The notes under the pieces: model-generated
What the model saw: only the letters and a program-made list of their open reading frames with translations
What the model was told of the DNA's origin: nothing
Databases searched by the model: none
Source of the DNA: a bacterium
Lineage (GTDB): Bacteria; Oederibacteriota; Muellerivitia; Muellerivitales; Muellerivitaceae
NCBI GenBank assembly: GCA_035549195.1
Contig: DASZRK010000012.1
Span: 1-64,000, forward strand
Length of the DNA stretch: 64,000 bases
Reading direction: 5' to 3'
Shown: piece after piece, positions 35,546 through 37,808 of the stretch
Numbering within the stretch: the stretch's first letter is position 1
Layout: the number at the start of each line of letters is the position of its first letter
Position numbers and translations under genes: made by a program

Positions 35546-36196
35546 ATGGACAAAGCACAAAAAGTCATCGAAACCAAGACCTTCCAGGGCTTTCGGAAGA
35601 TGTACCACGTCCTGGCCTCGTCCCTTTTTCCCTTGGCCTATCTCTACCCCCCCTTTGGGATGGATGCGCCCCTGGTCAAAAAGTGGTTGTTGATCGTTTC
35701 GGGGAGTTGCTTCCTTATTTCCTTCGTTTTTGACTTCATGCGTCTCCGGGACCACCGGTTCAATTCCCAATTCATGAAGTTCTTCTCCGCCTTCATCCGC
35801 CGTACCGAGACCAACCGTTATAACGGCTCCACCTTCCTTTGTTTGGCCTTTTTCATGGTCATCCTGGTCTTCTCCCGGGAAGTGGCCATCATCGCCATGT
35901 TGTTCCTGTCGTTGGGCGACGCCGCCGCCGAATTGGGCGGTAAGAACTTCGGCCGCGTGAAGATCTTCGGCAAGTCGCTGGAAGGGACCACGGCCTTCTT
36001 CATGGTGGCCTTCCTCATCGCCTTCATGATGCTGCTGGATTGGCGCATCGCCCTGGTGGGGGCCTTGGCGGGTGCCCTCGTGGAACTTCTTTCCTTCGAA
36101 TGGGACGATAACCTGACCGTTCCCATTGGTTCGGCCATTGCTTTGGCCTCCGCTTTCTTCATCTTCCATTGGGGTTCCAGCCCTCTTTCCTTCTAA
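35546..36196 (+). CDS. CTP-dependent lipid kinase-like membrane protein (DGK1/SEC59/phytol kinase family)
   Basis: 216 residues with about six membrane helices. Family motifs are the N-terminal HVLASSLFPLAYLY, FDFMRLRDHRFN, and the signature SLGDAAAELGGKNFG...GKSLEGTTAFF found in dolichol kinase, yeast DGK1 and phytol kinases. These use CTP to phosphorylate a lipid alcohol or diacylglycerol. The substrate is unknown. AT-rich non-coding DNA follows. Confidence 0.8.
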   Translation: MDKAQKVIETKTFQGFRKMYHVLASSLFPLAYLYPPFGMDAPLVKKWLLIVSGSCFLISFVFDFMRLRDHRFNSQFMKFFSAFIRRTETNRYNGSTFLCLAFFMVILVFSREVAIIAMLFLSLGDAAAELGGKNFGRVKIFGKSLEGTTAFFMVAFLIAFMMLLDWRIALVGALAGALVELLSFEWDDNLTVPIGSAIALASAFFIFHWGSSPLSF

Positions 36197-36412
36197 AAAG
36201 CCCTATTTTCATGGCGAATTCTAAGCGGGTTCAGTTATCTGCTTGTGTTTTACCGTTAAAAATTGGACTAAAAGTTCAATAATGAACAGGTAAAATTTGA
36301 TCAAAATTGAGGAAAATTTGGGAATCCCAGTTTTTTTCGAAAGAAAATGCCGACCGACCGTCAAGATCAGTGGAAAATGCTTAAAAAGTCGAAGGTTAAG
36401 CCTTTTCCTTTT
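36197..36412. other. AT-rich upstream region of the sigma-54 unit, with two palindromes
   Basis: No gene. The stretch 36220-36400 is far more AT-rich than the window. It has GTTCA-ATAA-TGAAC at 36274-36287 and TGGGAATCCCA at 36319-36329, both inverted repeats lying 85-155 bases before the sigma-54 promoter, a usual position for activator (NtrC-type) binding sites. A GGTAAAA/TTTTACC pair also brackets the first palindrome. Confidence 0.5.
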
Positions 36413-36428
36413 TGGCACAAATGATGCA
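36413..36428 (+). promoter_or_regulatory. Sigma-54 (RpoN) promoter
   Basis: TGGCACAAATGATGCA matches TGGCAC-N5-TTGCA: GG and GC are exactly ten bases apart and only the first T of TTGC is changed. It is the only clear sigma-54 promoter I found in the window. Predicted start of RNA near 36439. Confidence 0.8.
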
Positions 36429-36438
36429 CTTTAATTGA

Positions 36439-36688
36439 AGCGATCACCCTGGGAACGCTCAAAAGGACCCAGGAGAAAATTGAACGTCGAAATGAAAGGG
36501 AATGGCTGAGCCACCCGCTTGCCAGCGATGTCTCGGAACCCAGAAGTCTTAGGTACCCGCCCAATCCTTCGCCAAAAGGACTGGGGCGCCCGGCCACCCG
36601 AAAGGGACCGGGGGGAAGTAGCCCAATGCTTACCCGCCCATCCTTCCAAAGGGGATGGACGAACGGATGCCGGAAAGCGAGGAGAGCC
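36439..36688 (+). ncRNA. Candidate structured leader RNA of the sigma-54 unit
   Basis: About 250 bases without a long gene, GC-rich after 36440. It can fold into several hairpins: CCTTCGCCAAAAGG (36566-36579), CCCGG...CCC-GAAA-GGG...CCGGG with a GAAA tetraloop (about 36590-36612), and CCATCC...GGATGG (about 36638-36658), the last ending 20 bases before the ribosome site. It does not match the cobalamin, TPP, c-di-GMP-I or fluoride riboswitch patterns that I know. A ten-codon frame (TTG 36480 to TGA 36509) behind AGGAG could be a leader peptide. Confidence 0.45.
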
Positions 36689-36844
36689 ATGGATGAAAAT
36701 TGCCATCGGATCGGGAGGTTGCTGGACCTCTACCGCGCGGGAAAGTTGAACGACCGCGAAAAGGCCGACGTGGAATATCACCTGTTGTATTGCCCAGAGT
36801 GCATGTTCCTGTTGACCCTGGTCCCTAGCCTCAGTAACGAGTAA
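36689..36844 (+). CDS. Mini zinc-finger (zf-HC2/anti-sigma-like) protein
   Basis: 51 residues. C5/H6 and H31-x3-C35-x2-C38 match the zinc site of anti-sigma factor N-terminal domains (zf-HC2); the rest of such a protein (membrane helix, sensor) is missing. GAGGAG lies 5 bases before the ATG. It is the only good frame between the sigma-54 promoter and a strong terminator. It may bind a sigma factor or another protein; no ECF sigma gene is near. Confidence 0.7.
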   Translation: MDENCHRIGRLLDLYRAGKLNDREKADVEYHLLYCPECMFLLTLVPSLSNE

Positions 36845-36864
36845 CCGAGGGCGTTGCCGCCCGA

Positions 36865-36896
36865 AGCCCGCCGGGTCCTCCGGCGGGCTTTTTTTG
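36865..36896 (+). terminator. Rho-independent terminator of the sigma-54 unit
   Basis: AGCCCGCCGG and CCGGCGGGCT form a perfect ten-base stem with a five-base loop, followed by seven or more T. It lies 20 bases after the mini zinc-finger gene and closes the unit. Confidence 0.93.
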
Positions 36897-36975: not shown

Positions 36976-37419
36976 ATGAACGGTTTCGATCCGAACCATT
37001 TCGATCCGTCGGTCTTCATGGCCACCTTCGGGGCCCTCTATGGGGTCATCCTGGTCGTGGCTTTGGCGATCGCGATCTTCATTTGTTACCTCCTCTATAA
37101 ACTTTACGAAGCCGTTCCGGCCCAATTCCGGGCCATGGAGCCGGGCAAGGTCTGGTTGTTGCTCATTCCCTGCTTCAACATCGTCTGGATGTTCTGGGTC
37201 TATCCAGGGCTCGCGAAATCCTTCAAGGCCTATTTCGATTCGGTCAAGGACGACTCGGTGGGGGACTGTGGGGCCAAGCTGGCCCTTTGGTATTGCATTT
37301 GCACTTGTTGTTGCATCATCCCTTGCGTGGGAGCGATCGCGGGGATCGCCGCCCTGGTCCTCATGATCCTCTTCCTGATCAAGGCCCATGAGTTGAAGAA
37401 CAAGATCAAGACCGCCTGA
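36976..37419 (+). CDS. Small membrane protein of unknown function
   Basis: 147 residues. A short N-terminal tail, membrane helices at about 14-36, 55-75 and a long C-terminal hydrophobic part with an unusual Cys cluster (YCICTCCCIIPCVG) before AIAGIAALVLMILFLI. The layout resembles small DUF4234/DUF4190-like membrane proteins but I cannot name the family. ATG 36976 is preferred, with AAAGGA seven bases upstream; 36919 lies before the predicted RNA start. The stop shares a base with the next ATG. Confidence 0.75.
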   Translation: MNGFDPNHFDPSVFMATFGALYGVILVVALAIAIFICYLLYKLYEAVPAQFRAMEPGKVWLLLIPCFNIVWMFWVYPGLAKSFKAYFDSVKDDSVGDCGAKLALWYCICTCCCIIPCVGAIAGIAALVLMILFLIKAHELKNKIKTA

Positions 37420-37808
37420 TGGGCCGTGGATCCCTCCTGGATCCAGACCGGACCCTTTGGGCCTGTTGCGTCCTCGCGGTGGGGGCCAGCCTTTTGCTGG
37501 CCCCTTCCGCCCTCCCTTCCCTGGATCTTTGCTGGTTCAAGTCCCTCACCCACCACCCTTGTCCGGGTTGTGGATTGACCCATTCCTTCCTGGCCATCGG
37601 TCATGGGCGTTGGGCCGAAGCCTGGGCTGATAACCCCTTCGGTTATGTTTGGTACGCCCTCGCCATCTATGGGGCCCTTCGGCCCGTCTTGCGCAGGGCG
37701 GTCCCCGGCCTTGCTCGAAAGGCGGATGGTTGGCTCGGGTCCGGTCCTTTTTTTCCCTTGTTGGTCGGGGTCATGATCCTGGTCTGGCTGGTGCGTTCCT
37801 TCGCCTGA
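37419..37808 (+). CDS. DUF2752 family membrane protein
   Basis: 129 residues. The family core is complete: CWFKSLTHHPCPGCGLTHSF, a short GHGRWAEAWADNPFG, then two membrane helices. DUF2752 proteins are widespread small membrane proteins without known function; the conserved CPxCG suggests metal binding. It is translationally coupled to the preceding gene by a shared base. Confidence 0.88.
   Translation: MGRGSLLDPDRTLWACCVLAVGASLLLAPSALPSLDLCWFKSLTHHPCPGCGLTHSFLAIGHGRWAEAWADNPFGYVWYALAIYGALRPVLRRAVPGLARKADGWLGSGPFFPLLVGVMILVWLVRSFA

Follow-up and report, generated by a model that had tools for sequence, protein, structure and literature searches.

Normally, the gene of an anti-sigma factor lies side by side with that of its sigma factor, and the anti-sigma domain is made of four helices. 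Small regulatory units that depend on sigma-54, such as Qrr/LuxO and GlmY/GlrR, take the form of short stand-alone transcripts that end at an intrinsic terminator. The locus described here lies in a window of 64,000 nucleotides (the whole stretch of DNA that was analysed) on contig C12 of a 3.2-Mb draft genome; among named records that carry the gene, MAGs of candidate division FCPU426 come nearest. Its product shares with the zinc-binding class I anti-sigma factors (ASDI/ZAS proteins, e.g. RsrA, ChrR, RslA and RsiW) the HxxxCxxC motif with an upstream Cys, a match to Pfam zf-HC2 and a three-helix bundle. Unlike these, it is only 51 aa long and has no fourth helix, membrane domain or sensor domain, and its gene has no adjacent ECF sigma gene and is furnished with its own sigma-54 promoter and terminator. 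The likeness to Qrr/LuxO and GlmY/GlrR is confined to the short stand-alone sigma-54 transcript ending at an intrinsic terminator, whereas the unit here codes for a conserved protein and no activator gene could be recognised beside it.

By inspection of the sequence, the unit consists of a sigma-54 promoter, a leader of ~ 250 nt, the 51-aa zf-HC2 gene and a terminator, in that order. Outside the leader, its parts are as follows.

36413 to 36427, forward strand: sigma-54 (RpoN) promoter with -24 GG and -12 GC
36689 to 36844, forward strand: gene for the 51-aa zf-HC2 protein, with zinc ligands C5, H31, C35 and C38 and a predicted three-helix fold
36863 to 36896, forward strand: intrinsic terminator, a 12-bp stem followed by a T run

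The initial annotation had proposed a self-contained sigma-54 unit encoding a small zinc protein, and all of these parts were found in place, including a terminator hairpin (36863-36891) of -25 kcal/mol with its T run; the orthologs also have GC-rich terminators 3' of the gene. The reading frame runs from an ATG at 36689 to a stop codon at 36842-36844. An alternative in-frame start at 36626 would give a product of 72 aa, but the conservation of the protein begins only at the 36689 ATG.

The promoter, TGGCACAAATGATGC, follows the pattern TGGCAC-N5-ATGC with the GG/GC spacing of the sigma-54 type, its -12 element being ATGC rather than the TTGC of TGGCAC-N5-TTGC, and would place the start of the transcript near 36439. 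The genome has a single copy of RpoN. A sigma-54 type element was found 5' of 12 of the 13 homologs, own genome included, namely at seven of the eight loci of the 51-aa subfamily and at all five loci of a paralogous subfamily of ~ 60 aa. The exception is a second copy in genome G004, which has only a degenerate element. With a chance expectation, by our own estimate, of ~ 0.004 per 450 bases for a loose form of the pattern, its occurrence upstream of these homologs is far above chance, and since the element is common to both subfamilies, sigma-54 control is probably ancestral. The promoter claimed at first thus holds in its spacing, its recurrence and the presence of RpoN, and promoter and protein are kept together across the homologs of the family.

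The paralogs of the second subfamily are zf-HC2-like proteins of ~ 60-62 aa, present in the same genome and in G001, G003, G005 and G006 (L021, L022, L023, L024 and L018), likewise under sigma-54 type promoters. In four genomes they lie directly 3' of a gene whose product has a sorting- or FlgD-like-looking C-terminus.

Taken by itself, the sigma-54 pattern is not enriched genome-wide (14 sites versus 13 in a reversed control), although several of the 14 are directly 5' of genes. A phylum-wide scan with the 16-base promoter pattern, allowing three mismatches, was too noisy and was discarded. Sites of the form TGGCAC-N5-WTGC (L028, L030, L032, L035, L037 and L041) directly precede genes whose products are secreted or membrane proteins, a response regulator and what looks like an ammonium transporter; these genes are likely part of a sigma-54 regulon. 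Another sigma-54 type site (L040) precedes a moaA-like gene with a long GC-rich leader.

Elsewhere in the genome, a candidate sRNA (L093, also L029; G000:C2:119798-119917, reverse strand) comprises a sigma-54 promoter, an RNA of ~ 100 nt and a terminator, with no reading frame. Its sequence was matched in all eight genomes of the family and its promoter was seen in all seven in which that stretch was inspected, the set without G001; no Rfam match was above threshold. The sequence upstream of it resembles the end of a Fis-type activator gene. A conserved linker, AAACGAATCAAAACTCACCTCC, holds a stretch resembling an anti-Shine-Dalgarno sequence. For the ribosome-binding sites of the second subfamily, the predicted pairing energies were -12 to -18 kcal/mol; the 51-aa gene gave weaker values of -6 to -11 kcal/mol. 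As a comparison, 34 sites of the window had a median near -8.5 and a range of -3.5 to -16.9 kcal/mol.

The assignment of the 51-residue product to zf-HC2 (PF13490) was borne out by a score of 31.4 bits, above the gathering cut-off of 22.2. The C...HxxxCxxC zinc site is conserved in the protein and its homologs, and Cys5, His31, Cys35, Pro36 and Cys38 are invariant in the 13 sequences. The AlphaFold model (pLDDT 85) has three helices, at residues 3-16, 22-34 and 36-48. Among solved structures it comes closest to the anti-sigma domains of RslA (3hug) and RsiW (5wuq), with probabilities up to 0.97 and a TM score of 0.69, but since the E-values are ~ 0.6 and more, the match supports the type of fold and is not proof of it. 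As modelled, the protein is a three-helix bundle of the class I anti-sigma factor (ASDI) type.

Homologs with zf-HC2 occur in all eight genomes of the family. The direct orthologs in G001, G002, G005, G006 and G007 are 80-84% identical and that in G004 49%, the additional G004 copy also belonging to the 51-aa subfamily. Nearly all pairs among the six closest orthologs have more silent than replacement codon changes (e.g. 27 versus 9). The stand-alone form was found in no other genome among 45 of the phylum, where weak matches lay inside larger open frames, and none of the viral contigs searched gave a match. Of the papers that could be searched, none paired sigma-54 with zf-HC2, or 'orphan anti-sigma factor' with zinc. 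The gene is thus real as a conserved, lineage-restricted sigma-54 gene encoding a variant of the zinc anti-sigma-like domains.

Class I anti-sigma factors contact sigma region 2 through their fourth helix (PMC7406223), and in the AlphaFold model the protein stops after helix 3. We could not find a sigma factor gene beside the 51-aa gene; sigma-70 region 2 had 16 matches elsewhere in the genome, several of them of ECF size. The score against NCBIfam antisigmaE (NF052368) was 28.7, below the curated cut-off of 50. The missing helix, the lack of a neighbouring sigma gene and the low score count against an anti-sigma reading. The protein could instead be a small one, made under sigma-54, that senses zinc or redox state or that stores zinc, for which an intact Cys-His-Cys-Cys site, a missing fourth helix and the absence of any adjoining partner gene would all be suitable. 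However, the fold match is to anti-sigma domains, and a C-terminal hydrophobic stretch, LLTLVPSL, is strongly conserved among the close orthologs, as expected for a binding surface; we regard this alternative as unlikely.

The gene sits between the gene at 35546-36196 and mfd in its own genome and in G001, G002, G004, G005 and G006. The G007 contig ends at this place, so that the mfd side alone is visible there. The 35546-36196 gene encodes a membrane protein, as judged by its sequence, with no Pfam match. Farther upstream, G001 and G005 share the HK, RR and Rex genes too. The unit had been described as unrelated to its neighbours, which is right for transcription but not for position, since the conserved synteny indicates that its place is old. 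Two reading frames between the zf-HC2 gene and mfd, at 36976-37419 and 37419-37808, have no match in the relatives' loci and are probably lineage-specific.

Three elements are relevant 5' of the promoter, none with an assigned strand.

36253 to 36268: conserved element CGTTAAA, a candidate site for an enhancer-binding protein, from an alignment of five orthologous upstream regions
36296 to 36305: palindrome TTTGATCAAA, present, not conserved
36319 to 36329: palindrome TGGGAATCCCA, present, not conserved

The two palindromes had been put forward as activator sites; both exist, yet they are missing from the orthologs in the upstream alignment, which lends the proposal no support. The CGTTAAA element is ~ 150 bases upstream of the -24 GG. 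In relatives, its right half is TAAC/TTAAC-like, and in the own genome this half is decayed. Outside CGTTAAA, alignment among the orthologs is poor in the region 5' of the promoter.

The leader, all on the forward strand, was divided into the following features.

36516 to 36527, forward strand: hairpin P0, CGCUUGCCAGCG, with CGC and AGCG(A) invariant in 8/8 loci
36531 to 36540, forward strand: conserved block UCUCGGAACC, which reads CCUCGGAACC in relatives; it too is complementary to the ribosome-binding site
36552 to 36558, forward strand: 5' strand of helix P2, GGTACCC, kept in the own genome, G005, G006 and G007; GGTTTCC in G001
36559 to 36664, forward strand: variable GC-rich domain, with predicted hairpins at ~ 36560-36586, 36589-36612, 36616-36631 and 36638-36658
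36665 to 36671, forward strand: 3' strand of helix P2, GGATGCC, complementary to GGTACCC
36673 to 36683, forward strand: ribosome-binding site GAAAGCGAGGA, 11 nt, identical in 8/8 loci

Measured from near the predicted start, the leaders are 95 (G002), 117 (G001), 133 (G004), 175 (G005), 179 (G006), 251 (own genome) and 273 nt (G007) long. The GC-rich hairpin domain is conserved in neither length nor sequence and is very short in G001, G002 and G005. The stability of the fold is ordinary for its composition (MFE z -1.24 against shuffled sequence; +0.32 to -2.62 in the relatives), and at the gathering score of Rfam 15 the leader has no match, the hits below threshold being only terminator-like or due to chance. 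In these respects the leader with several hairpins that had been described was not confirmed: the fold is unexceptional and the long hairpin stretch is not kept among the relatives. This range of lengths, the near-shuffled stability and the lack of an Rfam match would all fit an ordinary, loosely constrained 5' UTR with a variable GC-rich insert, in which only the promoter, the ribosome-binding site and the protein matter. Against this stands the block CGCYTGNNAGCGAYRCC, which lies far 5' of the start codon in several genomes and is kept even in the divergent G004 copies, whereas the DNA 5' of the promoter is poorly alignable. We give this simple explanation a substantial chance, while doubting that it is the right one.

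Other conserved parts of the leader include CGCYTGNNAGCGA and the block CCTCGGAACC, which occurs with small changes in six loci, as TCTCGGAACC in the own genome and CTTTGGAACC in G007. The leader is hardly coding sequence. Some frames do run open through the P0 region, yet by eye the changes are not codon-like, and frames and stops vary among the relatives. For the ribosome-binding site, the arrangement AAGCGAGGA-N4-8-ATG has six occurrences in the whole genome and none in the reversed control. Its six occurrences imply that AAGCGAGGA works as an ordinary ribosome-binding site, though a rare one, and its invariance despite this rarity is notable.

These features raise the possibility of a genuine cis-regulatory RNA in the leader, either resembling a riboswitch or responding to a protein. 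Hairpin P0 would leave the ribosome-binding site free and a long-range CYCGCUU/AAGCGAG(G) helix would hide it, the P2 domain serving as sensor or spacer. In keeping with this, the 5' arm of P0 is able to pair with the ribosome-binding site instead, RNAalifold returned P0 together with a CCUCG/CGAGG pairing, and thermodynamic folding predicted pairing of the site with CYCGCUU at 0.69-0.99 in the own genome, G001, G002 and G007, and with CCUCG instead in G006. Known kinds of leader that sequester the ribosome-binding site, among them translational riboswitches, thermosensors and those of ribosomal-protein genes, likewise carry conserved blocks complementary to an invariant site; unlike those leaders, this one matches no Rfam family and its predicted sequestration is not beyond chance, the fractions against shuffled leaders being 0.11-0.61 (0.97 in G004a). 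Moreover, the RNAalifold alignment holds no compensatory double change in P0 or in the ribosome-binding-site pairing.

The GGTACCC/GGATGCC strands of helix P2 (GGUA.CC/GG.UGCC) are present in four to five loci, in five leaders they flank inserts of widely different length, and paired equivalents can be proposed from the sequences of G002, G004a and G004b. Five of its pairs have changes on both sides, but the alignment was built by hand around the helix, with the rows of the divergent leaders hand-placed, and most of the changes stem from the two rows of G004, which biases the count in favour of the structure. Equally good helices arose at the same place in 1-49% of shuffles of single leaders (97% for G002), and a scan missed the helix proposed in G002 and favoured others in G004a and G004b. 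In the three long leaders, hairpins are similarly placed and 4 of 19 pairs have changes on both sides. A covariance model of the leader, run on the 45 genomes of the phylum, found the motif on no other gene, the extra matches inspected being weak or inside coding sequence. Changes on both sides of a pair were thus seen in P2, from few sequences, and none in P0; taken together, structure in the leader is suggested by these alignments rather than proved.

The initial annotation had also argued from the length of the leader that the RNA itself has a role. The conserved short blocks and 11-nt ribosome-binding site lend this weak support, but most of the 250 bases are a lineage-variable insert whose fold does not exceed shuffled sequence. 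An RNA role is therefore possible, given the conserved blocks, yet the covariation comes from few sequences and the predicted sequestration is within the shuffled range, and we judge a true cis-regulatory leader rather improbable. Still less probable, and a long shot in our estimation, is that it represents a new class of cis-regulatory RNA private to this FCPU426 family. Such an RNA would control the translation of a minimal anti-sigma domain induced by sigma-54, and two sigma regulons would be joined through one small protein.

Comparison among the relatives establishes that the promoter and the Cys-His-Cys-Cys protein are conserved, together with the ribosome-binding site of 11 nt, a short block in the 5' part of the leader and the genomic place. 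We lean, by a little, towards reading the locus as an autonomous gene that depends on sigma-54 and encodes a minimal zinc-binding domain of anti-sigma-like type, restricted to one FCPU426 family and working as follows. An enhancer-binding protein would turn the gene on through RpoN, and the start of translation might be tuned by the conserved leader blocks, where CUCGCUU and CCUCG could pair with the ribosome-binding site. The product, equivalent to helices 1 to 3 of a ZAS domain, would be a binding domain stabilised by zinc. Its partner would most likely be sigma-factor region 4 or a helical domain like it, and binding would couple the sigma-54 programme to another regulator.

Stand-alone three-helix ZAS domains under sigma-54, with no cognate sigma gene, depart from the way anti-sigma systems are usually laid out. 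Several testable parts are on offer in the pair of paralogous subfamilies and in the conserved candidate sRNA under sigma-54. Should the product bind a sigma factor or an activator, the sigma-54 programme of an uncultured lineage would be linked through it to another regulon. The locus is thus a modest but real lead on gene regulation in these uncultured bacteria.
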